This document shows, piece by piece, positions 21,629 through 49,830 of a stretch of 64,000 nt of DNA. Location: positions 14,219,001-14,283,000 of the forward strand of contig CM074856.1 in assembly GCA_037501455.1 (NCBI GenBank), written 5' to 3'. Numbering within the stretch: the stretch's first letter is position 1; each line of letters opens with the position of its first letter. The DNA is from Lantana camara. Its lineage: Eukaryota > Streptophyta > Magnoliopsida > Lamiales > Verbenaceae. The notes below the pieces were generated by a model. It did not search any database, was not told the DNA's origin, and saw only the letters and a list, made by a program, of their open reading frames with translations. The position numbers and the translations under genes were made by a program.

Positions 21629-21685
21629 ATCTCTCCCCCTTAAAAAGAATCCGTCCTCGGATTCACAACACGCTTGAAAACAAAC

Positions 21686-21907
21686 AATGAGAGATTCCCC
21701 GTCTCTCACAAGCAACAAGGAGAGAGCCCTGTCTCTCGAGCAGCAATGAGAGAACCCCGTCTCTCCAACAACAATGAGAGAACCCCGTCTCTCGAGCAAC
21801 AATGAGAGAACCCCGTCTCTCGCAAGTAAAGAGAGTACCCCGTCTCTTAAACAAAAATAAGGGAATCCCCGTCTCTTAAAAACAAGAGAGAGCACCCCGT
21901 CTCTCAA
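21686..21907. repeat. palindromic minisatellite in the LARD interior
   Basis: About eight copies of a ~30-bp unit of the form CAATGAGAGAACCCCGTCTCTC with variants. Each unit contains an inverted pair GAGAGA...TCTCTC around CCCCG, so each could fold into a small hairpin. It lies about 60 bases inside the polypurine tract end of the element. Confidence 0.8.
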
Positions 21908-24750
21908 CCGTAAATAAAACAAGGAAGTCTCCAATACTCCCAAGCAACTCACGCAAAACCAAATTCAAAATCACGTAAGGCACCCAAAGCAAGTAATAAA
22001 TATCACCCACATTGATTTCAATTACTCCAAATAATTTAACACAGTAGGAGATCAAAGCACTTAACATAAAAATTTACGTAGGTTAAATTTGCATGAATGC
22101 ATGTATCATGAATGCTATAAAGTACCGTTCACCGTAGTTGTAAAATTCAGATTTGTGAGTTGTCGTTGTCCAAGGTATGATCTGTCCTGAATGTAACTCA
22201 ATGCCCAGCTTGTTTTGAACCTCTTCAGGGTTCCCCGGTGAAGCGATTGATGAATTCTTTAAGGAGTATATTCTTAGATCCTTTCTCACTTGTACTGCTA
22301 CCCAACTTCTTCAATCCTTATCCAACTCAGTGCTCAACATATCCCCGAGGATAACCACTCTGAGCAACTTGATAATTCGATCCCAACCTTACGACGTTTA
22401 TTCTTATAGTCTCTCTCAACACAAGTCTTTTCCCACCTTCCGTTCCAATTGTCCGTTCATTCCCTTTGACCCCCTCAATGTTATATTCGATACTGGTCCC
22501 ATATTTCTTTAATCAAAGACAGAAGATTCTTGATGATTCTTGAAATTTGATGTAATCTTCCAATTATCATCCTTTTCTATTTGGTCCCTTCTTAAGTTTC
22601 CTTCTGGATTATCGTTGATATAACTAATAACTCGATAATATTGTCTTGGGCCCCTTCATACTTCATTGACTAAGTCTTAATCGACACCATCCCCTTATAT
22701 GATAGCTTGATTCGGTTTTCCCCTTGTTAATTCTAACTTAGAAATCCATAGAAACTCTGTTATGATTCCATTACCTCCAGATCAGAATTCCATACGTAGC
22801 TTCCCTCTTAATAGCTTAACCATAACCGCCGTCTTATTCATTCCTAATCACCACCCTTAGGACTCCCAGATTCTCCTTAATTTGCATCCTCGTTATTACT
22901 CCTAACATATTCATTCGAGCACCACTCCCATCCTCCAATTCGCCTCTCGGTCGTGCTCTCCCCCTTAAAATTTTCGCTCTTACATGTCCAACTCCATGAA
23001 TCCTTCTTTCAAAGAAATTTTTGCTGAGCCACTTCTGCTTCTTTAATTCACTCCTACGGTTTAATTCAAACCATTCAATAATTACTTCCTTCCAATCACC
23101 AACTCTTCTCTTTCTCTCTCTTCTTGAAATCTAGACCAATTTAATCCCCTCTTGTATTTCCATTCTTCAACTAAAGGTAATCCCTCTGAGATTAAGGTTT
23201 CTCCAAAACTCTTCAACTTAGTTTCTTCGGTGTAGATTGTGCTAGCTAAGCTACATACCCGGAATTCCCAAGATATAACCCAACTATTCTTCTCGTCTTG
23301 ATTCAAGTAAGCCTTGATCAAAGAATCACGTGAAGAACAAGGTGTAGCCATTCCCTATCAATTAAACACTAAGCCATGCATGTTGGATTAACATGCCAAT
23401 GCACATAGTAAACAATTAAAGATGCAACGATGCAACACGTTGGAGCAATTACATTAATTAAACATAAACGTACATATAGATAAAGAAAGCAATTAATTTA
23501 AATCGATGCATGATGCTCATGCCATGAATATGCAAAACCTGTCACCGAGGTGGTAAGCTTTTAGCTTGATGACGTGTTCTTCATTCCCATAATTGTAACT
23601 TTCTTTGAAGACATTGATAACTCCTTAGCTTTCCATGGTTTTCGAGTCTTCCTAATCTTCTTCATCCATTTGTATATACCATGGCCCGAACGTGCTATTC
23701 TTGAACCCAAGGTCTTATTTATCAATGGAGTTTACCCCTCAACGTACTTCCAAGCATCAACCTCCAAAGGTCATCCGACTCTTCATCTTGATGTCCTCTC
23801 CGGAAAAAGTTCCTTTAGCTTATCCTTTGTTTCCGATCTACGCGCATAATTCACCCATGATAGCGCTTTCCATTCTTGCTTGCTTCTTGATGTCTCCATA
23901 AGGTTCTGAGAAGACGACACGATTTGTATTCCTCGATGCTCATAAGTATCTTTGCCTTGCGTCCATTTGTTGTCCCACGCTTATATTCGTATCAAGTGAG
24001 CTTCCATAGTTGACCTCATAATGAGCTTTATGATTAACGGCTCCCAATCCTTGCATCTGAGTTGAGTCGAACCCTTTTAACACATCTTGTATCCGATCCC
24101 TTGAAGCTTCCCAATTTGGTCTTCCAATCACTCAACCATTCCAAACTCGGAGCTTCAATGGTGAACCTTGGAGCATTTAATCTTGTATTAAATATCTTCA
24201 AAATCGGGGTGGTGAAGAGTTCCACACTCCTCTCGTTGTCTCACGCATCCCTCAAGTTAGAACTTGAGTCTTTGCAATTCTTGTATGTGGAGAACCTTCA
24301 AGGTTTGTAGGTAGGGCATGATTGATGAACCTTCCCGTGATCCAAGCTTCCTCCCATGATACGAGCTATGATAGGTAGTTCCATTGTGCAAGCCGCGGAA
24401 TTTGAACACTCGGCCTTCAGTTACTTTGTCAATGGTAGTTGGTGTGAATGGTAGCTTTGTTTGCATGATAGTAGCCTATATAAGAAAGATCAACTCAAAT
24501 ATGGGTGCATGAGGATTAGTGTGTGCTTATGGCACGTAGTTAAATGAATCAATGCACATAGAATGCAAAATGCAACAATTAAAGCACATTAAATGAGAGC
24601 GTAGATTGTATACATGTATTAAGCAATTTCCAACAATTAGTATCAAAGATTCATGCCAAATCGATGCAATGTACACATTAACAAGTTGTTCCTATGCCGT
24701 GCGACCTAACTAACTCAAACACGACTCAAGAACACCGGTTTTGCAACCGG

Positions 24751-24762
24751 GCTCTGATACCA
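24751..24762 (-). other. primer-binding site of the LARD
   Basis: The + strand reads GCTCTGATACCA, so the minus strand reads TGGTATCAGAGC, complementary to initiator tRNA-Met. Spacing to the right LTR is eight bases. Confidence 0.9.
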
Positions 24763-24770
24763 CTTAAGGA

Positions 24771-27700
24771 TGTAGCACCCCGCACGTGAGGCACCACATC
24801 CCCCGTACTAAGGCTCAACATGAGTAACGAAATAGTAAATCCGTACCCGTATCAAACCCTAGCGAACGGGAGACAAACACAAAAACCTTCCTAAGCTAGG
24901 CGGAACTAGACCCTGCAATGATAACCAAATCACAATATATAATGCATGGCAGAGCCCAAATACAAACATACAAACCATAAGCAGAATTGAGCTCTTCATG
25001 CCTCTTTTACATTCATAGCAAAACCCAGTAAAAGCAATTCAATAACGATTACATAAATATTCAAGTCCAAGATACTACAGAATCGAATCAAACATAAATC
25101 CAATACATGAATGAGTGCAGGGACTCTCCTAACCTAACTCGACCCACTTAAAGACTCCAAACACCTCCGCCTAGCTCGAAACTCCAAAGCCAAACCTGCA
25201 CACTAAAGTGTTGGGGAGGGAGAGGGTCAGTCTCTAGAAGACTGAGTGAGCAGGAGCGATACATATATATAAAACATGCACATGCAAGTCATAAATCCCG
25301 AGCAAGGTTTTTATTTGAATTTAGTCCCCGAAAAGGGCAAGAAAATAGATAGACAATGCTCGACTTTTACGACTAATTCATATTAAATTCATTACATTCA
25401 TAAATCATAAATAAATATAAGGCTCGACGAGTGAGCGTGCACAATCTCCAACCAAACTCCGACCGTGTACGACAAATATCATTAATATATTGATTAGGCG
25501 ATCATGCAATATATCCTAATACACACAGACCATAAATCATGTCATAAACATGTTCGTTTGGGCGATCCGGATCCCGGCCTTCCCGCACGGTGCATAACCA
25601 TATCATAACATATACATAAGAAAAGGCATAAATCATAACCAACCTTCTTCCTCCGGGTGGTGGACGGGCTTGCAAGACCCGACCACCGGTTCATACATAG
25701 GCCAATGGGGGTACATGAATTCCCCAAAGGCACTCAGCTCCCATTCCCCGCTAAACCTCCTAGCGAGGGCCGGTATCACCGTAGTTTGGTTGGGACTAGT
25801 AAATGGGATCCCCGTCAGCCCTTGCTTCCTCGGTTAGCCACATATACTAAGTCCCGGGGCCCGAGCAATCAGAAATAGAAATGTGTCTCGCCAAACATAT
25901 CAATACATACATATGATACATACTATAAGAAATCATACCTTACCGTGTAACTCGGCATATGCTATATACGTACCTCTCCGTGTCATCCTAACCCGTAGCT
26001 AGCATGAACACACACGGTTTGGAGCATAGCCTCATTACAAAACCATTTTTAAGCTTATATACGCTCATACGTATAATTCAGAAGAATTTACTCGATAACT
26101 TCATTTGAAAACCATATATATATAATCATAAGGTTTTGGCCGAAGCTTTTCACATAAGGGTTGTAGGGTTTAATACGTAGCTAAAACGAAAACACCCTCA
26201 CCTGAACCGTGACGAAACAAGGAACGAGTTACCAAGTGCCCGAACGATCAAAATCTCTCCACCTTGGAGATAAACTGTACAAAAGACCACAAGACGTGTT
26301 TGTGAGACTCGAGACTCCATATGAACCATATATGACGCACGAAAATGCTCAAGCATGATATGAAAGCATAAAGATCATATTAAGGCATTTAAATCATATA
26401 ACCAATTCATTCACTTGTTCATTCATTTTCATTCAAATTCTTCAATTCAATCTCCAATCAAATTAATTCAAGAATTCAAATAGGAGCATAGAACATATTA
26501 AAGCTCTCCCAAAATGCTACTACATACTTCATGTTACATAAGATAGCATATTTCCAAGGTTTGACAACAAGAAGGAAGCATATGATATAGAAAATGAGTT
26601 ACGCGATTCATAGACGACATATAAACACACATAAACGGCATTAAGCAAAAGCATGCCTACAAATCATCCAAAAGCCATGAAATTAAACCACAATGCTCCC
26701 AACATATAGCAAAACAAGTTCATAGTTCAACACAAAAGGAGATAAAGTCATTCAAGAGGTGAAACAAATCAAAACCCGAAAAGGGAGCAACACGGACTGC
26801 ACAGGGGAAGGGACACGGGGGTGTCACCTTCCTTAGCCAAACTGAGCCACGACCGTGGCTTAGTACAGAGCTTCCCAGAAGGTGTGACACGCCCGTGTCT
26901 CACACTTATGAGTAAATGAGACACGGGGGTGTCACGGTACAGAACTTAACCACACACAAAGTTTTACCGGCAAAACTGAACCCATACCAAATCAATCCAA
27001 AAGCATACCAAATCAACTCCAAATTCTATGAAACTTAATATACAACAAATTTGGCATGTTAGGAACATATTTCATTTAGAGTGAAAAGGCTAATTCACAC
27101 GTTAAGAGCATCTAAATCATGCAGCAAAACTGGGTCGCTAAAATCGCACATATGAGCCCTATTGATTTAATCAGCCATGATCAAGTACTTAGGGGTTGAA
27201 TTTGGATCTGAAACTTTGGGGAGTGCATGCTAACATACTAAACTACTAATGTACTTCATATATATGCAAAATGGCACAATTAAAGCACATTAGGGTGACC
27301 AACAACCACACATATGCAACAGCAACAAATCTGTCATGGAGCATGCATAAAAACAGGCCATGTACTTCGGTTTTGAGGCTTCAAATGGAACCAAATACTT
27401 AAAACATGAATGTTAACATATAGAACAATGAGTGTACATAATATCCATGCAATTTCACATGAAAAGAAGATCATTAGGTCAAGCAACCAAGCAAAATGAA
27501 CAGCAGCTGTTTGAAAAACAGGGGAAACAGTTTGATCATCAAGTTTGGAGCTCCATATCTCATAATTTCATTAAAGGGTCAAGAGATAAAATCCTCCTAA
27601 TATCATATACTATCAGTTAGGAAAGAAATAGGTCAAGAAACAAGCTCATATGATCATATATAAGCAAGGAAATCAGCTACATAAGCAAATAGGTCACAAG

Positions 27701-28755
27701 AGCAAAAATCCCTAAAAGTTCATACCAAACTCATCACCCAAACCCTAATCAAATCTGATCCAATCATGATGTAAGTAGATGAAATCAAGTATAATAGAGT
27801 AGAGAAGACATAAATATTCATACCTTAAAGATTTGGGAGAGAAAGGTGGTGGTTTGAGCTCCAAAACCACAAAAATGGCCAAGGGTTTTCTCTCTTCTCC
27901 TCTTCTTCTCTCTCTCGTTTCAGTTGCAGCTGAAAATGGAGATATTTGGCTCGGTTTTCAGAGCTAAAGGGAAGAGAAAGGGGTTAACTCAAGGTACAAG
28001 AGTCATGGTTAAAGCATGGTTAAGTTAAGAGGTGTTATGGGGTCCCACCATGAAGACTAGTCAACCAAAGGAGTTCCTCTTGCACGAGTTTCTCGTTACG
28101 GTTGGATTTCGAAGGTCTTAATGATTTCAAAAAGGTATGAGGCTTGTTCCATTGTCTCCGAATCTTCGATACGAAGGCAACGGAGATGTCGGAATTCGAA
28201 TCCGAATTCCCGAGCTCAAGATATCAGGCATGGAACCAAGGGTGCGCTAATTGCTCGTTAGCCCCAAATTTGGTTCCACTATCAAAATTAAATTCGTAAA
28301 CACGTCAAATGAATCCGAAAACATAAACCGAGCACATAGGCACGTTCATAACACACATATTTACGACATACTAAATTTCCATACCATTCCGATATCAATA
28401 CATATAAGAACGAAGCACAAATAGAACACTCATGCGCATGAATGAATTCTTAACGTTATAAATTAATTACTAAAACTTAAGTTCCTTCTTAAATAAATTA
28501 AAGCCAACTAATAACATGTTGAAATTAATTAACGAAATTACCGAAATAGTTAAGGTAACATGAAACCTTAATTAAGAAATTAAACACTAATTATCAAAGT
28601 AGAATAAAATGAAATAAATTAAAATAACAATAGTTTATAGTTTAAATCAAATATAAACATTTATAAACAATTAATCATATAATTAAATAATTAAAGCGCG
28701 CAATTTATAAACAAATACGCCACATTATTTTAAACTGCAAAACTGGGGCGTTACA
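24771..28755 (-). repeat. 5' LTR of the LARD (right copy)
   Basis: 3985 bp, same ends as the left copy. Differences are scattered single bases (for example CTTTCTCC against CTTCCTCC near 18530/25650). The low divergence shows that this is the youngest insertion in the nest that I can date. Confidence 0.93.
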
Positions 28756-28760
28756 AGATC

Positions 28761-31037
28761 AAAGCACTTCGATCTGATCGAGGAGGCGAGTATCTTAGTG
28801 AAGAATTCCTTAATCATCTAAAAGATAATGGGATTATCTCTCAGTGGACTCCTCCGGGAACTCCTCAGCTTAATGGAGTTTCTGAGAGAAGGAATCGAAC
28901 CCTACTTGATATGGTTCGTTCCATGATGAGTTTCACTGACTTACCACCTTCTTTCTGGGGTTATGCCCTAGAAAGTGCAACAAAGATTCTGAATCTAGCT
29001 CCCTCTAAGACAGTCCCCAAAACGCCCTATGAAATGTGGCATGGTAAAATCCCTAGTTATTCTTACTTAAGAATTTGGGGTTGTCCTGCTTACGTGAAGA
29101 GGACAGTGGGAGATAAGTTAGAATCTCGTTCTAACTTATGCTACTTTGTAGGTTATCCTAAGGAATCCATAGGATACTACTTCTATGATCAATCTGAGCA
29201 AAAGGTGTTTGTTTCCAGAAATGCCACTTTTCTTGAGGAACCGTTCCTTAAAGAAAAGAAAGGCAAGATCATAGAATTAGAAGAAGTACAAAGTGATCCC
29301 ACACCACCCACTGAAGAAACGTCCCCTTTTGATCAACCACAACCAATCACGAATTTCGATACACATGAAAATCCTCCTCTAAGGCGTTCTGAACGCACTC
29401 CTAGACAGCCGGAGAGATGGTATGGATTCTTCCATGAAATCTCTCAAAAGGATAATGATCCTTTAAGATATGAGGAGGCACTTTCAGATTCTGACTCTGA
29501 ACAGTGGATAGAAGCCATGAAATCCGAAATGGATTCCATGAACTCCAACCAAGTTTGGGCCTTGGTAGATTTGCCTGATAGGGTCAAACCCATAGGTTGC
29601 AAATGGATCTTTAAGAGAAAGCTTGGAGTTGATGGAAGCATTGCAGCCTATAAAGCAAGACTGGTTGCAAAAGGATTCACTCAAAGACCCGGCGTGGACT
29701 TTGATGAAACCTTTTCGCCAGTTGCAATGCAAAAGTCTATTCAGATCATGCTTGCTATTGCTGCATATTATGACTATGAGATATGGCAAATGGATGTGAA
29801 AACTACCTTTCTCAATGGTGACATTGACAAAGACATTTATATGGAGCAACCCATAGGTTTCACATTCAGTGGGAGTGAGCAAAAGGTTTGCAAACTCCAA
29901 AGATCAATCTATGGATTGAAACAGGCTTCTAGGAATTGGAACATTCGATTTGATGAATCAGTCAAAGCGTTTGGCTTCATTCAAATTTCGAATGAGTCCT
30001 GTGTGTATAGAAAGGAATTGGAGACCTCAGTGCAATTCTTAGTACTTTATGTTGATGACATCCTTCTTATTGGGAATTCGAAGGATGACATGAAAGTGAC
30101 TAAGTTATGGTTATCGAACCAATTCGAGATGAAAGATCTTGGTGATGCGTCCTATGTCCTTGGAATTAAAATATATAGAGATAGATCTAGAAGGTTAATA
30201 GGACTATCACAGTCGATGTACATTGACAAAGTATTGAAGAGATTCAATATGGAGTCAGCAAAGGTTAAGAACCTTCCTATGAGTGTAGGGACATGTCTTT
30301 CAAAGAAGATGTGTCCTAAGACTAACCTTGAGAAGGAAAGAATGACTCATACACCTTATGCATCAGCAATAGGTAGCATAATGTATGCAATGATATGTAC
30401 TCGACCGGATGTGGCTTATGCACTTAGTGTAACAAGTCGTTTCCAATCTGACCCTGGAGATGGTCACTGGGCTGCCGTGAAGAATATTCTTAAGTACTTG
30501 AAAAGTACTAAAGATTTATTCTTAGTTTACGGAGGTCAGAAAGATCTTAATGTCGAAGGATACTGCGATGCAAGCTTTGCATCTGACTTAGATGATTTTA
30601 AGTCAATGTCAGGATACATTTTCTGCCTAAACGACGGAGCAGTGAGTTGGAAGAGTTCCAAGCAAACAACCACTGCAGATTCGACCACTGAGGCCGAATA
30701 CTTAGCTGCAAATGATGCAGCTAAGGAAGGTGTTTGGATTAGAAACTTCATTCAAGAGTTGAATGCTGTTCCTAGCATGAAAGACCCCATTACTGTGTTT
30801 TGTGACAACACTGGGGCGGTTGCTCAAGCAAAAGAACCAAGATCTCACCAACGGACCAAGCACATTATGAGGAAGTATCACCTAATCCGTGATATTATCA
30901 AAAGAGGAGATGTGCAAATCGAGAGGGTCACATCAGCAGAGAACGTGGCAGATCCACTTACTAAACCCCTTAGTCGAGAAGCTTTCCAAGGTCATCTTCA
31001 GAAGATGGGACTTAGAGTAGCTTTAGAATGGCTTTGA
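28761..31037 (+). CDS. copia B integrase C-part, reverse transcriptase and RNase H
   Basis: Second part of the copia B polyprotein, 758 residues plus stop, in phase with the part ending at 17645. It begins KALRSDRGGEYLSEEF and includes NGVSERRNRTLL, giving the remaining acidic residues of the integrase. RT starts near WIEAMKSEMDSMNSNQVW, with KARLVAKGFTQRPGVDF, QMDVKTTFLNGDI and the catalytic LYVDDILLIG. RNase H is seen in EGYCDASFASD, SWKSSKQTTTADSTTEAEY and FCDNTGAVAQAKEP. The frame ends at TGA 31035-31037. No broken codon is visible, so the protein part looks recently active even though the DNA is split. Confidence 0.95.
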   Translation, partial: KALRSDRGGEYLSEEFLNHLKDNGIISQWTPPGTPQLNGVSERRNRTLLDMVRSMMSFTDLPPSFWGYALESATKILNLAPSKTVPKTPYEMWHGKIPSYSYLRIWGCPAYVKRTVGDKLESRSNLCYFVGYPKESIGYYFYDQSEQKVFVSRNATFLEEPFLKEKKGKIIELEEVQSDPTPPTEETSPFDQPQPITNFDTHENPPLRRSERTPRQPERWYGFFHEISQKDNDPLRYEEALSDSDSEQWIEAMKSEMDSMNSNQVWALVDLPDRVKPIGCKWIFKRKLGVDGSIAAYKARLVAKGFTQRPGVDFDETFSPVAMQKSIQIMLAIAAYYDYEIWQMDVKTTFLNGDIDKDIYMEQPIGFTFSGSEQKVCKLQRSIYGLKQASRNWNIRFDESVKAFGFIQISNESCVYRKELETSVQFLVLYVDDILLIGNSKDDMKVTKLWLSNQFEMKDLGDASYVLGIKIYRDRSRRLIGLSQSMYIDKVLKRFNMESAKVKNLPMSVGTCLSKKMCPKTNLEKERMTHTPYASAIGSIMYAMICTRPDVAYALSVTSRFQSDPGDGHWAAVKNILKYLKSTKDLFLVYGGQKDLNVEGYCDASFASDLDDFKSMSGYIFCLNDGAVSWKSSKQTTTADSTTEAEYLAANDAAKEGVWIRNFIQELNAVPSMKDPITVFCDNTGAVAQAKEPRSHQRTKHIMRKYHLIRDIIKRGDVQIERVTSAENVADPLTKPLSREAFQGHLQKMGLRVALEWL

Positions 31038-31053: not shown

Positions 31054-32990
31054 TGTTAGGAATAGTGCCCTAAAAGCCGATTGTATATCCGCTTTGTGCT
31101 TTTCCTTATTGTAATCACAGACAATCTTTGAATGAAATAACGAATAACACTTCTTTATATGCTCTTGTTTGGTATGCGTTTACTTTAGTTGTGCATGTAT
31201 GAGAACTCCCCTAATCCTAATGACTTTAGGACTCTACCATTTAGGTGAAATGGTTCATGAAACGAGCCCTATATCACATAAGTCATGATTAGTAAAATAC
31301 TCCAAGCCGATGAGTCCTACAGACAGTGGGAGTGTCAACCTGACTCCTCTAAGGCTTGCTTATGGGATCACGCCCTTAAGAAGGACCACCTTGTTTCATG
31401 AAGGTGCAAAGTGTATAGTTGATACGTGCGTGATACATGAGGGTGCTTACTTTAATAAGTAAGTTCACTGAGGTGCCCCGTGTGAGAACATTCCTAAATG
31501 GGAAAGGAAGTTTCTATTTCAGGAAATGGAAACTTCCAGATTAGGAAATATCTCACGAGTCATTGATGTGATTAATTGATCCTTAGACTTGAGGTTCCTT
31601 GTCACTTTATGAGTTAACTCTGTAGTCTTAGGTATAAGCTTTAAAGGGTGTCGCCTTAGACAACTGATTCAAGGCTTATGCTGGGGCTGCACAAGTGATT
31701 CATGAAAGTGAAAGAGAATCAAGAAAGGATCTACACTTGCATTTGCAAGGTGATCTCTTATTGTGTAAGTCATTCATATGCCATATGGAGTCCTTGGCCA
31801 AGGCAGTAGATCAAGACATAAAGAAAAGGGTTTCTTGGATTGAGATCAAATGGATATGAAATGCACTTAGCTTTAAGACCGGATTATTAGGGTTCTGATT
31901 ATTCCCTTGCCCTAGATCTTGGTTGAGAGATAGTAAGTAGGAGGATTGTATCTCACATGAATCAATGACTTAAAGGTTATGTCGAATCCGAACATTCCAA
32001 TTCAGTTAGGGGTTAAACACCTGTTGCTAGACTATGGTCGTTTAATCTGTGGACTGATTAATTAATTAGTGAATTAAATTAATTAGGGTCACTGCTAATT
32101 GAATTGAGAACCTAGAGGGTCACACACAACAACTTGGTTACATGGTTGAGGCTTAAAAATGATTAAACGAGTTAATCGGGCCAAGAGGGTTCCACACGTG
32201 TGAAATCACACGTGTGGCTCACGTGAGTGACACGTGTCCCACACGTGTGAATAAATATATATTGTATATATATGTATTAAATAATTAAATGTGTTAATTA
32301 TTTAATAGACTTTGGTTTAATTTTGAATTAAAAAGAAAGTTTAATTTTGGAGAAAAATAATCTAGTTAATTAATTATGAATTAATTAATTAGATAAAATA
32401 AGTTATTTATTTTAAATAAATAAAGTATAAAATTATCCAAAAATAGTTTGGATATTTTTGGCTCTCTTAAAAGTTGACTTGAATTAGAATTCAAAGTCAA
32501 AGTTGGGAAATACTTGATGATCAAGTAATATGAGAGAGAGGAACCAAATCCTTGCCCAACAAGGATTAGGATCGGCGCCCCTCTCCCTTTCCTATATATA
32601 GGGGATCTCATGCTCCCCTTTAGAGCTAATTGGCAATTCTTTTGGTTCATGTGTTGAACACCTTCCTTTCTCCAAGATTAAATAAAACCCTAGGTTAAGC
32701 CTAAACAATAACTAGAGAACTAGCATCCTTACTAGTTAGATTGTGATCAAGTTGGTGGACTTTCTCTAGAGACTTCAAGTTAGAAGTTTGAAGATTCAAG
32801 CTTTACCAAAGGAGAGGGGATCAAGCCGCGAGAAGAGCGTTTTTGGGTGGCTTGAAACGCTTCAAGAAAGAATAAAAGAAAAGTAAGTTTTCTATCTCTA
32901 CGAATTTGGATACACGATTGCGAGTCCAAGGTCCTTTTGTTGGGAAAAAATTTTTAAATTCCGCTGCTTTCTGATTCGTGTTTTTCAACA
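31054..32990 (+). repeat. 3' LTR of copia element B, full length
   Basis: 1937 bp, TGTTAGG...CAACA. Unlike the 5' copy it keeps the promoter region with TATATATA at 32593-32600 and the downstream part that would be R/U5. Outside the gap the two LTRs differ at roughly one or two per hundred sites by eye. Related LTR pieces lie at 36452-39185 and 50311-51022. Confidence 0.92.
32593..32600 (+). promoter_or_regulatory. TATA box of the copia B 3' LTR
   Basis: TATATATA in CCTATATATAGGGG. The equivalent site in the LTR fragment at 50311-51022 is TATAAATA at 50628-50635. The 5' LTR lacks it. In this position it could only drive transcription out of the element, into the Ulp1-type gene remnant downstream. 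Confidence 0.6.
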
Positions 32991-35432
32991 CTATACTCGA
33001 AAATGCCATCCACCACAATAGAAAAATATTTTTATGGTGATCCAGGAATATGTACTAAGGATAACATTATATCCAATATGAGGGAATTAGTGAACAATAC
33101 GGAGAAAACTGATGTCGAGGATTTTTGTAGGATGTATACACACTTTGTATTCTCTACATTATTGTTCCCTGTCAACTCATTTGTTGTGCCTCGAGGTCTA
33201 ATTTGTTATGTGGATGACTTGTCTGCTATTGGAGATTTTTCTTGGGAGGTTGTTGCATGTCGGTTCTTGGTTGGAGCCATAAGGCATCATCTGGCGAAAG
33301 AAACACTATATGTCAATGGTTTTATGGCTGGAATGATGGTATTTAAACAAGTTCAAAATTTTTATTATTTGTTGTTTGTCTGTTATATGTGTAGTTGTGT
33401 TAATTAATTGAATTTGTTTTTTTTATTTAATGCAACAGGCTTGGTTTTATGAGCATTTTCCATCTTATGGTTGTCCTAGCTTGTTGCGGGTCTTTTCTTC
33501 ACTTTTTAGAAGGCAATCGAAAGCCAGCAATTTGCCTAGCAACATTGATAGAGCCAATGAGGTATTGGATGGCATTGACAGGATTGAGGTAAATCATTTT
33601 ACATTTTCCCTTTATTATTTTCTAAATAAGTACATGTTATTTGTGTATATTAGTAACATCATGTTCTTTATATTCTTTGAACTTTGTGGAGATTGTTGCA
33701 ACTCAAAAGAGGGAGTTACAATTGTTTGAACCTCCTTTGACAAAGGATAAGGATGATTTGGGGACTTTAGCAGTGTTGATGAGGGACATTATTGCTAATC
33801 AAAAGAGTGGGTTGAAGTTGTTAAGGCAATTGGTGAGTGAGAAGACGGGAGTGGTTGTTAATGAAAGTAAGGATGAAGAAAGTATTGGGGATGAGAATAA
33901 ACAGGAAGGGCATATTTATGAGAGTGAGGATGAAGACACTGTAGGGGAAAAGATTGAACCCGAAGGACACGCGGAGGATGGTGAGAATGAAGAAAATGTT
34001 GAAGAGGATAATGATATTGATACGGAACAAATTTTTAATGATGAGGGAAGTGACAAAGAAGCAACTATGGAGGAGAAGGGAGAGAATGATGTAGCTGTGA
34101 TATTGAGTGATATACAAGATAAGGCTGGGGAGGAGCATGGAGAGAAGGAAGGCTCAATTGTGGAGAGTGGGAAAGAAGAGAATGTGGATGAGAAGAATGA
34201 TGAGGAAGGAGTAGCTATGGACAATGAGAAGGAAGAAAATAAGGAAGAGAATGTTGGGGTTAATGAGAAGGGTGAGGATGTAGTATTTGGTCTTGTTGAT
34301 GATTATGCTAATGGAGACGAGTCAGATGATGTCAGTCGTCATGAAACTAGAATGAAGCAAGTGAATGATACCATTAGCTCCATTGTTATGTCTGTAAGAG
34401 AGATAGATGACAGGATCAAGAAAAGAAAAGCCCCCGACTTTATTACCCCTTCTTCATCCACTGTCCCGAAGATGAAGAAGAAAGTAAGATATCACATTTC
34501 GTTTAATTATAATTAATTATATGTTAGGTATATGATAATATGATAATCTGTAAGTTAAAACTCATGTATTTTGTAGGTGAACTTTGGAAAACACCCCTAT
34601 GGATGAGTGTTTTGCTTACGTTGGGAGATTGGACTACCTTGGACGAGAGGAGCTGACTACAAAAGAGGAAGAAAAAATCGATGGTTTCATCCGGGGACAG
34701 TCTAAGGAGGCACAAGATATTGTTTACCGTGGAAATGAAGTTGAAATCTTCAATTTTGATATATACCGATTGCTTTGGGGCCTGGAGATGAGGCAATCTG
34801 TCTTTGAGGGGTACATTGACATTTTGAGGAGCATGAACATGACAAGAATTTGGGGCATGTCAGCCCTTGTAACAACTGCTATATTGGATGCACTGCAGCG
34901 TCAATAGTTCATCAAAGGTTCAAAGAAGAAACTGGAACATGAAGATTTGGAAGGGCTGGATAAGTTCCTTACAGACAGTGTCATGAAGAGTGTGCGTTCA
35001 TTGCTTAGGCGTCTGAATCCTGATGTGTTGGGAGGTAACTGTTACATCATCTTCCCACTGAACACTAAAAACCATTGGCATATGGTGGTTCTCGACACTG
35101 AAACGAAGGTTTTTAAATGCTTGAACTCTATGCCTTCCTCCACTGCAACCGGGCATGCGAAGTTGTGGGCGAAATTCATTCGGATGTTCCTATTTCATGC
35201 ATACAAGAATGAGATTCCGAATGATGAAGTTGATGCTCAAGTATGTCCCTCTCAAGGTGATAATAGCCTCGATTGCGGTGCTTTTTTCTACCTTTTTGCT
35301 GAATGTTTTGCTAGGGATGACCCTACCTTCTGGACTGAATCTCGAAGTGCGAAGATGGCCTGTTATTGGGCCCATTTGGTTGCTAAGATACTATCTGCAG
35401 GAGACAATTCTAATGTTATGGTTGAAAACTGA
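32991..35432 (+). pseudogene. Ulp1/C48-protease-like transposon gene, main part
   Basis: Continuation of the gene begun at 11873. Likely exons: 32991-33338, 33439-33588, 33692-34483 and about 34575-35432, with GT-AG borders. The first exon continues the N-terminal domain. The third encodes an acidic region very rich in Glu/Asp/Lys/Asn (about 33850-34330). The last has the Ulp1 catalytic core: NHWHMVVLD (His), then CLNSMPS where the family often has Asp, and CPSQGDNSLDCGAFF (Gln and catalytic Cys). A TAG at 34905-34907 cuts the frame before this core, and the join into the last exon seems out of phase. Ulp1 enzymes remove SUMO-like modifiers; copies like this are carried by plant MULEs. Dead as a gene here. 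Confidence 0.75.
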
Positions 35433-39185: not shown

Positions 39186-39542
39186 AGGCTGACAAAGAAC
39201 ACGTTGTAGCAAAATACAATTGCAATAGAATATGAAGGATACGAATTCATTATTGAATTACCTGAAGCTAGGCGATCCCATATGCTCAACTTCATCATCC
39301 CTATCAGACGCCCTGAGGTCAGCATATGTCAAATTGAACGTTTTATGCAGTTCAACCATGTCAGCAACATCTTCATCATTCAATAACCTAACTTCATGAT
39401 CTTTGGCATGAGGAGCAGTGTATGTCAATCTTAATTCTCTCATATTTATCTCAGGCTAATAACTACCAACAATTGTCCTCAGATTCATCAAATTGAAATC
39501 ACCCATAATTGAAAATACGTGCATTTTATTTATCTAAGGAGA
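39186..39542 (-). pseudogene. possible MULE transposase N-terminal fragment
   Basis: On the minus strand, 39443-39258 encodes 61 residues starting MRELRLTYTAPHAKDHEVRL, then LNDEDVADMVELH. This resembles in style the N-terminal region of plant MuDR-type transposases (a Leu-rich stretch followed by DEDV..M...H). The downstream part is gone. The LTR element at 39543-43353 is inserted just upstream of it. Identification is tentative; it could be another short host gene fragment. Confidence 0.35.
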
Positions 39543-39919
39543 TGTTACGATACCTATAATTGCTCCAACAATTTCAAAGAAAATACCCCTCAATCTTGGA
39601 GTAAACGTTACAGAAAAGTTGGAGAGAAAGAACAGAGAAATCAGTGAGAGAAGAAAAAGAGAGAGAAAAGAGCCATAGAAAAGAAATTGGGCATTCTTCA
39701 TTCATAAACTTGCCTTCCAAAACTCTACAAAAGGTATATAAGGACTCTCTAAACCGAAACCCTACTGGATTAACAAAAATCACCAGGTTTAAGGGAAAAA
39801 GGAATAAAACATATTGACACTTTCTCTTAAGTTACACATTTCTACTGCTTTCCAATTAAGCCCTCCCTTTTTCAATCCAATTGACGAGTTTGCCCCTAGT
39901 AATTGTCACAATCATAACA
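39543..39919 (-). repeat. 3' LTR of the gene-capturing element
   Basis: 377 bp. On the minus strand TGTTATGATTGTGACAATT...TATCGTAACA. It contains GGTATATAAGG (TATATA on both strands), a possible core promoter. It aligns over its full length with the right copy. Confidence 0.88.
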
Positions 39920-39957
39920 AATCTTCCCCCTTGAAAAGATACTTGTCCTCAAGGATC

Positions 39958-40415
39958 CTAACTGGCAACGGCTGCAAGAATGTTGTAAATATTATGCCTC
40001 CCTAGTAGCCCTGATGAAATCCCCAACATACCCTGAGGCATATTGACCAAAACCTGAGTCTCAAACAGAGACAACTCAAATTTCAAAGAATGAACATCTG
40101 CGTTTTTGTTCTCCATTACAAAAGTCACGATCAGTACATTTGGGTTACCCCCGTGAACATAATTCACAACGGTACTCAACATTCCTGTTCTCGAACCCAT
40201 GGCCTCGTACATTCCTTTAATCAAGAAAGAAGTTGTTTTCCCATTTGTCCCAGTGATGCCAATAACCAACATGCTTCTAGAAGGATGCCTGAAAAAAGGA
40301 AACTGTTAATGAAGCAAGAACCAGATTTGTGTCCTCTACAATGATTAAGGCTTTGCATCCTAATGTAACTTCTATATCAATCTCTTTACTTGCAACAATC
40401 GCAACAACGCCTCTC
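39958..40415 (-). pseudogene. MurE/PAP11-like captured fragment, second part
   Basis: Continuation of the MurE-like segment, read 40415 to 39958. After a TAG that ends the long frame come VVAIVASKEIDIEVTLGCKA and LIIVEDTNLVLAS, then a frameshift, then IGITGTNGKTTS, the ATP-binding P-loop of Mur ligases. Next is YEAMGSRTGMLSTV, an internal deletion that removes the central ligase domain, then FELSLFETQVLVNMPQG and GLLGRHNIYNILAAVA from the family's C-terminal half. In plants the intact homologue works in plastid transcription complexes rather than peptidoglycan synthesis. This copy has a stop, a shift and a deletion, and cannot encode the enzyme. Confidence 0.8.
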
Positions 40416-42556
40416 TAATCCGCCTCAGATAAATATAAATGCCCATCAGTATTCCCACCTACACAACAAACAAATAAATCTCCACTCTCAAATATACGAG
40501 AATCGTGGGAAATCCCAGTGATCTCCACCTCTAAGTTACCATATACAGATATCAACACCACTTTGCTCTCATATAATAGCTTAGCTAAACTCATTCTGAA
40601 CTTGGGTTCAGGAATTCTAGACTTGGTTTTCCCAAACTCATCAAAATCAATGTTGAATGAATCCGAAAACTCACCATCACTCACCTTGGAGTCGGACTTC
40701 TCATCATCTTCCACCTCTCTACCCTCGTCATCATCAATCTCCAAATTTCCTTTTCCAATCAGATCATGCTTACCATAACATTTGATAATAAAAAAGACAA
40801 CAAATTGAGAAATGGGGTCATTCCCGATTCTCATGTCATTCGGCGCTTTCCACATTGTTTCCTTAATTTCATCAGATTCAGGTGCATTTATTTCAGAAAC
40901 TGCAATCATCTTCTTATCAACATCACACTCAGAATCTCCAGCAAAAGTCTTTGAAAAGATAAATGAAATATCAAAATAAGCCACAAATGCATGGATGTAG
41001 TCATTCGGTTCAGACAAGAACTTAAGAGATGCAATGAAATAAATGTCTTCTGAAGCCATCATAAAATTACCCATTGTCTTAAGTAATTGGCAGTAGGTGA
41101 AAATTTGATTATGCTCTAAGGTGTCAGTAAGAAATTCCCGTATGGATTGCTTCAAAATGTAGCTCATATCAAATCCATATACATTGCTCCATAATCCAAT
41201 CTCGTTTTCCTTGTAATCAGCATCTTCAAGAGTTGTCAATTGAGGAGAGGCTTTATCAGGCAATGCAAGTCCATCTTGGGCAAGCCACTTGTCACGAACA
41301 TAAAGATCTGTGTTTAACATATTCTCATAAACCAGAAAATATCCTATCAGCTCATAAATAATAATATCAATATTAGGAAGTGGTAACTCAACCTCTTCAA
41401 TCTTTTCCTTAAGAACAATTATAACATTTGAAAATCCATTTTTCTTTACCATCTTCTGAGCTATATCAGCCATGCAGGAGCATTCCATCTCATAAACATG
41501 TTTTGCCCCAACCTTAGCACAAACGAGTGAGAAGATTCCAATTACTTCCGGAGCTGCAACATTTAGCGCATGCTCATCAAGCCTTATCTCTACCACCTCA
41601 GAATCTGTTTTCTTCCATCCAACAATGTTCAAGAGGAAATGGCCTGGTGCTTCACCAATAATCCATTGCATCTCATTTGTCTTAAAATAAATTGATGATG
41701 CAGATTGGAAAACATTTTCACGGAATGAGATATTAACCATCTTATTTACTTCTTTGCACGAAAACGACTCCTGATGCAATCTATAATAAAACCTCGAAAA
41801 TATGATTTCATCCTCAGTTTGAATTCTGACAATTGAACCTTCCAAAGATTCTCCCACATAAATACTACAAGTCAAAAGACTACTGGAAGTAGATCTTTCA
41901 CTAAAGAAAGTGATGATCTCCTCAAGAACTCCCACATCAACCTCGTCACTATCCTTGCTATGTTCAATTGCAATTGTCCCAAGAACTCGAGTATCAATCT
42001 GCGAAATTTGTACTAATTCAGAGACTTCCTTGGTCCTTACATCCCAACTTCTATATCTCAATTCCTCCAGCACTCCTTTTAGCAGCTCGTCCCCAATCCT
42101 AGGGGTGCCCCATATCTCACAACTTCCCTCAATATTATTAACAACTTTGCTAAGCAACACTACATGTGGACTATGTTGCACGAATCTCAGCAAATCAAAC
42201 AAACATCCACCCGGATCAATCATAAACTCAGTAAATGGATGAGCATACTTACAACACGAGAAGTGCAGACTATTAGTGAAACAATGATCATTTTGATTTT
42301 TGCAACTCTTTTGACTGTTTTCTGCAATTTCACCAAGTAGAATCAACTCAAACTTGGAGTTGAACTCATTTGCAGCAACTTCAATTTTAAATCCCTTTGC
42401 AATTTGGTTATTGCAATCTGTTAAGCTCCCGATCCACATCTCGCCATCAAACTCTAGTACATTTTTCTCAACCTTATTCTCTAGTACCTCATCGAACACA
42501 TCGTAATAGACTTCTTTTACCGTTGATTCCTTTTCTTCAAATACATATGTATCATT
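40415..42556 (-). CDS. chimeric frame: unknown, PRMT1-like and MurE-like segments
   Basis: Open minus-strand frame of over 700 codons between TGA 42559-42557 and TAG at about 40412; I see no ATG near its start. Counting from GTG 42499 (694 codons): residues 1-300 are unrecognised. About 311-515 match protein arginine methyltransferase 1, with FSLVCAKVGAKHVYEMECS, NGFSNVIIVLKEKIEE, YELIGYFLVYENMLNT, KWLAQDGLALPDKAS and WSNVYGFDM. Both Glu of the double-E loop remain, but SAM motif I (Gly-rich) is lost and the C-terminal THW region is absent. About 515-600 are unassigned or acidic. About 632-694 match the MurE N-terminus (FRMSLAKLLYESKVVLISVY, ISHDSRIFESGDLFVCCVGG, DGHLYLSEAD). Intronless, so captured from spliced RNA. 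Catalysis is unlikely. Confidence 0.78.
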   Translation of the reverse strand, partial: NDTYVFEEKESTVKEVYYDVFDEVLENKVEKNVLEFDGEMWIGSLTDCNNQIAKGFKIEVAANEFNSKFELILLGEIAENSQKSCKNQNDHCFTNSLHFSCCKYAHPFTEFMIDPGGCLFDLLRFVQHSPHVVLLSKVVNNIEGSCEIWGTPRIGDELLKGVLEELRYRSWDVRTKEVSELVQISQIDTRVLGTIAIEHSKDSDEVDVGVLEEIITFFSERSTSSSLLTCSIYVGESLEGSIVRIQTEDEIIFSRFYYRLHQESFSCKEVNKMVNISFRENVFQSASSIYFKTNEMQWIIGEAPGHFLLNIVGWKKTDSEVVEIRLDEHALNVAAPEVIGIFSLVCAKVGAKHVYEMECSCMADIAQKMVKKNGFSNVIIVLKEKIEEVELPLPNIDIIIYELIGYFLVYENMLNTDLYVRDKWLAQDGLALPDKASPQLTTLEDADYKENEIGLWSNVYGFDMSYILKQSIREFLTDTLEHNQIFTYCQLLKTMGNFMMASEDIYFIASLKFLSEPNDYIHAFVAYFDISFIFSKTFAGDSECDVDKKMIAVSEINAPESDEIKETMWKAPNDMRIGNDPISQFVVFFIIKCYGKHDLIGKGNLEIDDDEGREVEDDEKSDSKVSDGEFSDSFNIDFDEFGKTKSRIPEPKFRMSLAKLLYESKVVLISVYGNLEVEITGISHDSRIFESGDLFVCCVGGNTDGHLYLSEAD

Positions 42557-42931
42557 TCACATCATGTCTCCCATTTCTACTTCCAACAAATACTTGACTT
42601 CTCTTTCGGGCATTTCATCGAACATTTGCTTGTCAATCTCTTTTGCAGCTTCCTTTACTGTAAGTTTCTCATCCTTCAAGCCATCAACAAGATTTGGCAC
42701 AACCGCTTGAGTCTCCACTGAACCAAACCTCACAAACGTGATATTCTCCCCTCCGAGCAACCTCACAATTTCCTCCAACTTGGAGTTCATGGATCCCTCC
42801 ATTTTCTAAGAAAAATCCACAAACTGCCTTTTAATGTCTTCTAGACCACCTGCCAAGACCCCATATCCTTCTTTCAGCTGCATCACATCAAGCTCTGAAT
42901 CCTAAGTACGTTGAGTTTGAGTCCTTGTCAT
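42557..42931 (-). pseudogene. gag-like N-terminal remnant of the capturing element
   Basis: Starting at ATG 42931 (MTRTQTQRT), the minus strand holds a frame with two TAG stops that includes VMQLKEGYGVLAGGLEDIKR and MEGSMNSKLEEIVRLLGG, ending at TGA 42559-42557. The pattern (basic start, then short coiled-coil with Leu spacing) resembles the gag start of plant Ty3-gypsy elements. It is in the same frame as the chimeric frame downstream. It may once have been fused to it. Confidence 0.5.
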
Positions 42932-42973
42932 CTTCCTTCCCCAATATTGCTCGAAACCTTACTCTGAGGCCAT

Positions 42974-43353
42974 TGTTACGATACGTACAATTGCTCCAAC
43001 AATTTCACAGAAAATACCCCTCAATCTTGGAGTAAATGTTACAGAAAAGTGGGAGAGAAAGAACAGAGAAATCAGTGAGAGAAGAAAAAGAGAGAGAAAA
43101 GAGTCATAGAAAAGAAATTGGACATTCTTCATTCATAAACTTGTCTTCCAAAACTCATTACAAAAGGTATATAAGGACTCTCCAAACCGAAACCCTACTA
43201 GATTAACAAAAATCACCAGGTTTAAGGAAAAAAGGAATAAAACGTATTGACACTTTCTCTTAAGTTACACGTTTCTACTACTTTCCAATTAAGCCCTCCA
43301 TTTTTCAATCTAATTGACGAGTTTGCCCCTGAGTAATTGTCACGATCATGACA
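42974..43353 (-). repeat. 5' LTR of the gene-capturing element
   Basis: 380 bp; on the minus strand starts TGTCATGATCGTGACAATT and ends CGTAACA. The sequence next to it inside the element reads ATGGCCTCAGAGTAAGG on the minus strand, in the position of the primer site; I cannot name the tRNA with confidence. Confidence 0.88.
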
Positions 43354-44220
43354 GGAGACGCACAAGTGTGCTAGACTCACCATCTTCGTATGAGTTAGTC
43401 ATCACTAACTCCGAAACAGAGGCAAAAAATAAACCACGAAATTCAGCTCAGAAAATGTGAAATGAGCGAAATAGCCTGAGCTAAGCGGCGAGGGGAGTGG
43501 AGACTCAGACCTCGAGTTCGTCGGGGAGAGTTTCCGGTGTCGATTCTAGGGAGCTCTATCGTTTCCGTCGGAGAGAGCTGCTACCAGTGGTCGTGACCGA
43601 AATGGAGTAATACCAACGAAATAGAGGGAAGAAGAGTTTCCATGCTTGCCGAAATACACCTCCGTCGCCGGCGAAGTGGCTGGGACCGACTTCAAATTTG
43701 CCCTGGCGAGCTAGGGCAAAGCAGATCTTCTTGGTATATTCAGACAATTATTTTGGTAGTTAGAGATAATAAATGGTGGAAATTAATAAAATGAAGGGTA
43801 AAACAATCATTTTAGGTTAATAGGGAACAAACCAAAATTATAAATCTTATATAGGAAATTAATAGGAATAATTTTTAAATGGGGGGAACTAACTAAAATT
43901 TTTACAATACATGCGTAGTTTTAAACTAAGGCCATGGTCAAGACCGGTAAGTTAAAAAGCAAAGGAAATTGAGAAAAACAAACCTTCGACGCTGCTTTGC
44001 TGGAAGGTGGAACCGTCTGGATTAACCGTTAATCATTGTTTCACGACTCTTCCTTTTCTTATTTCTTATTTAATATTTAATAATATAGCCAAGTGCCAAT
44101 CATTCAACCTGTTCCTCCATTTCTATACCTGTCTTCCAAATTTCCTGTCGCCTCCTTTCTCGAATTACGCAGATTTTCCTCTTCCACTGCACAAATCGGC
44201 ATTAAGATTAATACAAAATT
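43354..44220. other. interrupted flank and upstream region of the Rab gene
   Basis: 43354-43930 continues the sequence interrupted by the capturing element and may be the 5' end of the same MULE-like fragment as 39186-39542. It contains a GC-richer stretch (43490-43740) and then AT-rich sequence. From about 43930 to 44220 lies the likely promoter and 5' UTR of the Rab gene. I see no clear TATA box, which is usual for a housekeeping gene. Confidence 0.4.
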
Positions 44221-46254
<2,034 letters not shown>

Positions 46255-48050: not shown

Positions 48051-49062
48051 CAGGGGATGGGATCCCGTGCCTCATTGTTGGGTATTCTTTGTCGGACCTA
48101 AAATTTTTTGGTCTGATTCTAATCCGACTAAAAATGTGAAGAGGGCATTTGCATTCTAAGATTTAATCCTAACACATGGGCCGGAAACCAAGTTAATACT
48201 GAGCCCAAATTTTGATTAAAAAAAATATTAGCTGAAGCCCATCAGATCCCCGCCCCAAGATTGGAACCTCACCAATTCTTACACTTAAATCCCACGAAGT
48301 AAATTGCACCCATCACCCTATGTTATGTCAAAACTATTACAAAAAAATTCTGTGTTTCAAAAATTGTTATAAAAAATTATATATTTCTATGCATCAGAAA
48401 TTTTGAACGCACCGAGGGATGCACACGCGTTAATTGAACCTGCCAAAGAGAAAATAAGTAAGTAATATGTAAAAGTAGGCATGCAAATAGCTCGAGTCGG
48501 CCCAACAAAAGTTTGAGTTCGAGCTTGACGAATTCGAGCTGAGCACCAAGAAACGGCCAAGACTTGAAGCGTTTATGTAAAGTTGACTATGTCCTCGTGC
48601 ACTCTGTAAACCTACATTCTATTTCTAGATCATCCAACCCGTAAATAGAAACCTAATTAAACCTCAATTTCCAGAATTATACATATGATACAATCCGAAA
48701 AGCATTTAGAAATTTTTTTAATTGTAACTGTTCTCTCCTTCATAATGAAATAAAATATACATCTTTCAAATAACATGTGGATTATATTTACTATGTAACT
48801 GATACTAATTTGACTGAATTTGATTAAAATTAAATTGCCCAACAAACAATATACTTTTTACTTGACCCTAAATGTATATACCAAAGAAAAGAAAAGACGT
48901 GTTTCCAAGTGCGACTCCAAGATTATCGATCACTGGGGTCAAAATAATTTAACTACTAATAAAAAATATATATTATTAAGAAATAAAATTTTAAAATATT
49001 TATTTTACAATTGTCCTCTATGATTTTTTATTTGTACTAAATACAACCATCTCTAAGGAGGT
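48051..49062. other. intergenic, degraded repeats
   Basis: No gene seen. Around 48295-48400, GTAAATTGCACCCATCACCC resembles one end of the MITE in the subtilase intron, a likely truncated relative. Around 48485-48550, AGCTCGAGTCGG and TTCGAGCTTGACGAATTCGAGC resemble hAT-type subterminal sequence. Confidence 0.4.
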
Positions 49063-49830
49063 GTTTGAAAATTTTAATCAATAAGTAGAAGTTAAAATAG
49101 AAGTGAAATTTGAAAAAATAGAAGTAAAATTTGAAGAAAAAAATTGTAGTAGTAAAAGTAATGAGTGTTTGAAAAAAAGGTGTTCACAAATTTTAATCAA
49201 TAAGTAGAAATTAAAAAAGAAGTGAAATTTGAAGAAAAAAATTGTAATAGTAAAAGTAATTAGTGTTTGAAAAAAAGGCGTTTGCAAATTTTAATCAATA
49301 AGCAAAAGTTGAAATATAAGTGAAATTTGAAAAAAAAAAATTGTAGTAGTAAAAGTAATGAGTGTTTGAAACAAAAGGTGTTTGCAAATTTTAATCAATA
49401 ACTAGAAGTTAAAATAGAAGTAAAATTTGAAAAAATAGAAGTGAAATTTGAAGAAAAAAATTGTAGTAGTAAAAGTAATGAGTGTTTGAAAAAAAGGTGT
49501 TTGCAAATTTTAATCAATAAGTAGAAGTTAAAATAGAAGTGAAATTTTAATCAATAAGTAGAAGTTAAAATAGAAGTGAAATTTGAAAAAAAAAATTGTA
49601 GTAGTAAAAGTAATGAGTGTTTGAAAAAAAGGTGTTTGCAAATTTTAATCAATAAGTAGAAGTTAAAATAGAAGTGAAATTTGAAAAAAAAAATTGTAGT
49701 AGTAAAAGTAATGAGTGTTTGAAAAAAAGGTGTTTGCAAATTTTAATCAATAAGTAGAAGTTAAAATAGAAGTGAAATTTGAAAAAAAAAATTTATAGTA
49801 GTAAAAGTGTTTGAAAAAAAAATGATAGTC
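49063..49830. repeat. ~100-bp minisatellite array
   Basis: Seven main copies plus partial ones of a 97-135-bp unit. The unit contains GTGTTTGCAAATTTTAATCA, ATAAGTAGAAGTTAAAATAG, AAGTGAAATTTGAAAAAAAA and TTGTAGTAGTAAAAGTAATG. Units start near 49063, 49170, 49276, 49378, 49497, 49638 and 49729. Some have an internal duplication of the AAGTAGAAGTTAAAATAGAA part (49540-49580). Chance minus-strand frames rich in Phe/Leu arise from it. Confidence 0.9.

Follow-up and report, generated by a model that had tools for sequence, protein, structure and literature searches.

The window analysed here, 64,000 nucleotides of the Lantana camara genome (C2:14219001-14283000 of 1.27 Gb; L-numbers denote loci fetched from the same genome), carries at 39543-43353, on the minus strand, a complete long terminal repeat (LTR) element of 3.8 kb, within which fragments of two host genes, PRMT1 and MurE/PAP11, lie in one frame (Table 1). 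Its LTRs end in TG...CA, and a 5-bp target-site duplication (TSD), a primer-binding site and a polypurine tract complete the anatomy of an LTR retrotransposon; an earlier note on this DNA, made from the letters alone, had correctly described two LTRs of ~378 bp, a perfect GGAGA duplication and a purine tract. The primer-binding site, which I take to be complementary to the initiator tRNA-Met, has TGGTATCAGAGC or TGGCCTCAGAGC as its counterpart in sister elements. In the aligned LTR pair 359 of 380 columns are identical and 14 of the 18 mismatches are transitions (Kimura two-parameter distance 0.050). As the earlier note had also held, no retroviral enzymes were seen: the three scanned open reading frames of the element gave no protease, polymerase, RNase H or integrase domain, and an Rfam scan of the window gave no match. 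The leader is broken by four in-frame stops, and in the long open frame the first ATG is at codon 40, the longest ATG-initiated predicted product thus having 674 amino acids. The element represents one insertion, by now aged, of a family of short, non-autonomous LTR elements.

Table 1. Features of the Lantana element, in its own 5' to 3' sense (window positions)
Feature	Positions	Strand	Remarks
Target-site duplication GGAGA, at the element's own upstream end	43354..43358	.	
5' LTR, 380 bp	42974..43353	-	
Primer-binding site TGGCCTCAGAGTAAGGTT	42955..42972	-	adjoins 5' LTR
Leader and core common to the family	42206..42970	-	85% at the amino-acid level to the L017 counterpart over 246 amino acids
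Open frame, 713 codons stop to stop	40415..42556	-	stop included in span
Segment of unknown origin	41547..42088	-	also in several sister elements
PRMT1 fragment, 587 nt	40960..41546	-	host coding sequence nt 351-937; 84.3% identity, gapless
Spacer of unknown origin, ~217 nt	40743..40959	-	between PRMT1 and MurE pieces
MurE/PAP11 fragment, first part	40144..40742	-	544/602 to host MurE; 713-codon frame stops inside
MurE/PAP11 fragment, second part	39955..40150	-	178/196 to host; after internal deletion of ~0.3 kb
Polypurine tract AAGGGGGAAGA	39922..39932	-	adjoins 3' LTR
3' LTR, 377 bp	39543..39919	-	
Target-site duplication GGAGA, other end	39538..39542	.	

The minus-strand frame of more than 700 codons that had been announced, with PRMT1 and the start of MurE, was recovered in full: residues 339-534 match PRMT1 (E 1.6e-52 to PDB PRMT1) and residues 614-713 MurE/PAP11 (E 2.5e-37). 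The rest of MurE, including GITGTNGKTT, follows in broken form, again as described, in a different frame at 39958-40305 (Pfam Mur_ligase_M, 1.3e-11). The MurE piece as a whole has 90-91% identity to the host gene, one stop, one frameshift and a deletion of ~0.3 kb between short repeats. An LTR element with captured gene pieces, both in one frame, is thus supported; the fusion proper stands as regards the shared frame and fails as regards direct abutment, the spacer lying between the two pieces.

The host PRMT1 gene lies at C9:15041977-15044524, and spliced alignment places its introns at nt 241, 252, 408, 472, 615, 703, 819 and 943 of the coding sequence (CDS), the last position being approximate, as the guide protein lacks a stretch there. 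Because five of them (408 to 819) are absent across the 587 nt of the window piece, this piece derives from spliced RNA. The host MurE gene is on C3 (locus L020), where an uninterrupted frame (residues 20-609) spans the entire captured part; its protein is closest to that of Paulownia (88%), then Rehmannia (87%). The lack of introns in the MurE piece therefore says nothing on RNA origin, and MurE was rejected as proof of RNA capture: the proposal that both pieces came from spliced RNA holds for PRMT1, while MurE is uninformative. Intronless and adjacent host loci, which would have explained the fusion otherwise, are contradicted by a PRMT1 with introns on C9 and a MurE on C3.

Neither piece can be a working gene. 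The PRMT1 fragment begins in the middle of what is presumably the cofactor-binding motif and ends before the C-terminus, and the MurE fragment is closed by a stop, frame-shifted and deleted. An exportin-like piece in the spacer was considered and rejected: sister L024 runs on to a Pfam Xpo1 match, and since the window is already in MurE at that point, the spacer is assigned to no gene. Its counterparts in L015, L016, L018, L019 and L024 all run into sequence other than MurE.

The earlier interpretation was right in kind but too narrow, for the element is one of a large multi-gene family. When the genome was searched with the interior, the best 40 of 166 candidates yielded 84 matches; 20 loci were fetched from this list, one being the host MurE gene, and 14 were taken as having LTR pairs. 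Together with the window element and L042, L043 and L049 (which, like L048, were added later and chosen by frame length) these make 18 delimited members. Strict search found 5-bp TSDs in six of the 14 (L013, L014, L016, L017, L018, L028), besides the window element. LTR divergence in 16 elements (13 of the 14, L019 being left out, plus the window element, L042 and L043) ranges from 0 (L015, L028, L042) to 0.116 (L012), and some members have LTRs 98-100% identical together with single sense frames of 952-1196 codons fusing two to five host genes. One composite is shared (99%) by L028 and L042, which lie on different contigs and each have LTRs free of mismatches.

A search with the leader gave at least 165 matches, with the best 150 of 246 candidates scored. 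By my own reading of the rows, the family-specific part of the leader is present in roughly 55-60 loci among the matches listed, at least 11 of which have frames of 1000 codons or more, stop-free in the match; matches covering only the first ~85 residues may be autonomous elements. Against a set of 5.8 billion proteins the leader yielded 1873 candidates, none at E 1e-5. In sisters such as L013, L017 and L043 the primer-binding site overlaps the leader's start codon, the same nucleotides serving as primer site and as first codons; the L028 frame passes through the primer site, starting within the LTR. L015 (C7:87909500-87918500) contains the LTR in three copies, with a 1.2-kb block that recurs at 99.6%, an arrangement either tandem or nested.

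Host genes of 14 recognised kinds have left fragments in loci of the family. Twelve are found in delimited elements: PRMT1, MurE, MBTPS1 (E 7e-98), ECA/SERCA-type Ca-ATPase, ACA8-type Ca-ATPase, P4-ATPase, subtilase propeptide, aspartic protease (E 6e-82), cystathionine gamma-synthase, PMR5N, alanine aminotransferase and cyclin (L011 and L048 pass the cut-off; L028 and L042 are below it). The exportin domain (L024) and RRM_8 (L021, L048) come from loci that share family sequence and whose LTR ends are not delimited; MFS and phosphomannomutase matches in L049 are below Pfam cut-offs. Two or more recognised host genes are present in 10 of the 18 delimited members, a count for which not every frame of each was scanned (the window element, L009, L011, L013, L014, L023, L027, L028, L042 and L043). 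In all, the elements lack twelve introns from four host genes: in addition to the five of PRMT1 in the window, four of the ACA-type and two of the ECA-type Ca-ATPase in L023, and one of MBTPS1 in L028, L042 and L027. The host PRMT1, MurE and MBTPS1 genes are on different contigs.

The longest sense frames reach 1266 codons in L017, 1196 in L028, 1146 in L049, 1135 in L043, 983 in L023 and 952 in L042, followed by the window element and by ten others with 175-535, while the longest antisense frames (17 elements) have 75-157. A single frame of L023 holds ECA, ACA, MurE, P4-ATPase and subtilase pieces; that of L043 holds PMR5N, PRMT1 (just 48% over 54 residues), ACA and cystathionine gamma-synthase; those of L028 and L042 hold MBTPS1, PRMT1 and a weak cyclin-like piece. 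L017, with the longest frame, has one host piece above the cut-off, the aspartic protease, and the frame of L049 has no recognised host piece above it.

When five donor proteins were searched in six frames, none of 34 donor matches was antisense, 33 of them lying in elements and the other in host MurE; these matches are not independent, many elements sharing one PRMT1 capture. Of the six neighbouring donor pairs scored, five have a common frame, three of these five being copies of a single composite. The script called the remaining pair, ECA-ACA in L023, out of frame, an artefact because that spliced stretch of ACA peptide holds rough-splice stops; the longer ACA match in L023 shares its frame with ECA and MurE. 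The distinct in-frame neighbours are four: ECA-ACA, ACA-MurE, MBTPS1-PRMT1 and PRMT1-MurE.

Host PRMT1 matched 14 of 21 sequences, starting at CDS nt 351 in ten, at 353 in one and further in for three; as ten of the 14 share the 5' breakpoint, one ancestral PRMT1 capture is indicated. Over 185 sites of MurE, the window element and L023 share five derived states, with seven found in L023 only and four in the window only, and since derived sites are shared but the neighbours differ, MurE was probably captured once and shuffled later. At the MurE join of the window 9/10 bases are common to the sister sequence and host MurE, and at the MBTPS1-PRMT1 join of L028 6/7 are common to the two host genes, the longest run identical in the element and both partners being 5 and 4 bases, respectively. 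The two joins with comparable partners fit template switching.

As to the vehicle, the first ~80 residues of the family leader are similar to the N-terminal part of Gag in an autonomous Ty3/gypsy element, and a Tf2-type SH3 domain is above the cut-off in L025, L021 and L048, as expected of non-autonomous Ty3/gypsy derivatives; gag matches in L026 and L028 and chromodomain matches in L017 and L025 do not reach the Pfam cut-offs. The pol domains of an autonomous Ty3/gypsy chromovirus, not seen in the three scanned frames of the window element, are found in L047, whose 1530-codon gag-pol matches capsid, protease, reverse transcriptase, RNase H, integrase and chromodomain. Its 458-bp LTRs are 100% identical, with the TSD GGCCG, and its Gag start resembles the family leader at ~70% DNA identity. 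L047 is regarded as a relative and not a proven helper, because its LTRs do not match those of family members. Frames of 1530-1609 codons in which only the Gag start matches also occur at C9:16987725, C10:49735773, C11:3970626 and elsewhere, and are likely autonomous relatives, the one examined being L047.

The reading that I favour, with a probability of about 0.8, is that of a non-autonomous family, related to a Ty3/gypsy chromovirus, which gained its host pieces by RNA template switching. A switch of template from one co-packaged RNA to another is the mechanism that fits best, and the joins themselves support it modestly. The family keeps LTRs, primer site, purine tract and Gag-like start, host sequence taking the place of gag-pol; an autonomous relative would package the element RNA in trans, host mRNAs would be packaged along with it, reverse transcriptase would switch templates at short shared sequence and so insert spliced host fragments, and switching between different element RNAs would shuffle these fragments among family members.

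Several observations weigh against this reading. Transcription, packaging and the switch itself are inferred. The stretches shared at joins are short and imperfect, come from two joins only and may not exceed chance, and on the ACA side of the ACA-MurE join of L023 no match was found in the extra 0.7 kb fetched; confidence in the mechanism is lowered because two joins give short, imperfect overlaps and the ACA-MurE join is not comparable. The L047 LTRs match those of the family in nothing beyond one 29-nt hit (E 0.036). Under strict search, eight of the 14 members have no TSD; one ACA exon in L023 aligns at just 79% over 39 nt; and frames change within PRMT1 or MBTPS1 in L009, L010, L012, L019 and L027. 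Parts of unknown origin remain in the element: the segment 41552-42109 has no PDB match at E 10, and the part of L018 that matches the window's unknown segment has three, the best only E 0.26. Finally, the PRMT1-MurE join is single-copy among the 84 matches listed, being spanned by the window's own match only. The further copies that the earlier note proposed to look for thus exist for the family and not for this join, the absence of which elsewhere does not refute capture, because its parts occur separately in sister elements.

Whether anything beyond transduction of the kind known from maize Bs1 needs to be invoked is an evenly balanced matter. More than one host gene is fused in frame and PRMT1 is without introns (MurE being uninformative), as in Bs1, and the frames would be open simply because the pieces are coding and the insertions young, without selection on the fusions. 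In agreement with this, amino-acid change is near neutral in most pairs: in most comparisons of members the ratio of nonsynonymous to synonymous change (dN/dS) is close to the ~0.72 that neutral simulations give (12 comparisons, two with host PRMT1), with a raw median of 0.67 over 76 pairs, and is 0.76 for the window against L015 (neutral 0.73) and 1.08 for L023 against L009. The exceptions are L017 against L018 (0.38, with 0/400 simulations as low), L028 against L027 (0.54, P 0.035) and L017 against L049 (0.55, P 0.048). A conservative stop test pooled over five usable element pairs, a sixth being dropped for want of overlap, counted 10 stops against 11.9 expected (P 0.35), and the longest sense frame shortens with LTR divergence (Spearman -0.66, P 0.011, n=14), which is what decay alone would give. 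On the other hand, donor pieces are all in sense and neighbours mostly in one frame, the interior is mostly open in several young members, a less conservative null expects 22.1 stops (P 0.0045), and frameshift indels per mismatch are fivefold rarer in the interior (317/14719) than in the LTRs (486/4326), a comparison between non-independent pairs in which the LTRs may be more gap-prone. An apparent depletion of stop codons in several pairs was weakened as a candidate signal, vanishing with half the substitutions and with elements picked by DNA similarity; the simple stop test is biased, its reference frames being open by choice and L042, L043, L048 and L049 picked by frame length.

That frames are open in young members is a fact; selection on them is hypothetical. 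A lineage of continuing RNA-based exon shuffling, in which the openness of the frame and not the encoded content is selected, is a tentative and rather doubtful proposition. Pieces of spliced host mRNA would then be kept only if in sense and in frame, and fully translated RNA might escape decay or silencing, or host-like sequence might make silencing costly. If this is true, new open frames made of several genes would keep arising.

Transcripts reading through into each gene from a neighbouring element (3' transduction) and then spliced would likewise yield intron-less pieces in sense, and passages of PMC8616336 describe such capture for retrotransposons. It is improbable here, for the PRMT1 piece is internal to the CDS and the pieces come from several loci and lie mid-element. 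DNA-level capture of host segments by repair patches or recombination, which could appeal to the short shared stretches that also occur in DNA repair, is contradicted by the missing introns, twelve in four genes, and is very improbable.

The family described here differs from the known classes of gene-carrying or non-autonomous elements. LARD and TRIM elements are non-autonomous LTR elements without pol, dependent on helpers, TRIMs being very short and devoid of coding capacity; in the present family the interior, neither very short nor mainly non-coding, consists largely of coding sequence, some of it from the host, and the window element, at 3.8 kb with a 713-codon frame, is no TRIM. Pack-MULEs and gene-carrying Helitrons, which also shuffle host gene fragments, are DNA elements that take up genomic DNA, whereas here the introns are gone, the vehicle has LTRs, primer site and purine tract, and the window element ends in LTRs with a 5-bp TSD and not in DNA transposon termini. 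Pack-type elements are treated in parts of PMC13317346.

The precedent is Bs1, an LTR element whose gag is fused to three host gene fragments, according to passages of PMC13317346 and PMC8616336. The Lantana elements share with it, as there described, the LTR vehicle with fused host fragments, and differ in forming a whole family with 14 donor kinds, up to five host genes per frame, signs of shuffling and young insertions. The new part is that a family does this repeatedly. Host gene fragments inside intact LTR elements are likewise known from cereals, as far as the relevant passages go: a maize survey counted 425 LTR elements carrying gene fragments, with 189 captures or more (PMC2774510), the captured genes in LTR elements of rice and sorghum number 672 and 1,343 (PMC3726574), and additional frames in plant LTR elements are reviewed in PMC7264820. 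According to that maize survey, in the portion consulted, no single element combined fragments from different standard nuclear genes, whereas at least two recognised host genes occur in 10 of the 18 delimited members here, not all of them scanned in full; in the review passages drawn upon, Bs1 is the main exception to single-gene capture. Neither a multi-gene transducing family of this kind nor, as the earlier note had supposed, a retroelement joining PRMT1 with MurE was found in the open-access literature searched. A family with young insertions, 14 donor kinds and reshuffling would be a natural laboratory for the making of new multi-domain frames from RNA, and would make it testable whether an open frame protects the RNA of a parasite. 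Gene annotators are also warned that a transposon mosaic can present itself as an open frame of more than 1000 codons containing Pfam domains.

Elsewhere in the window, an 11.1-kb element at 17646-28755, with giant 4-kb LTRs (99.2% identical) and the TSD AGATC, is inserted in a polyprotein, presumably of copia type, with frames at 15984-17702 and 28734-31037 and its own 1.5-kb repeats at 12184-13723 and 31054-32586. A Ulp1-type C48 peptidase frame, possibly from a DNA transposon, is found at 34908-35432, and a Ras-family GTPase frame at 45528-45998, ~2 kb from the PRMT1-MurE element, points to insertion near a gene. A block of imperfect tandem repeats occupies 49059-49829.

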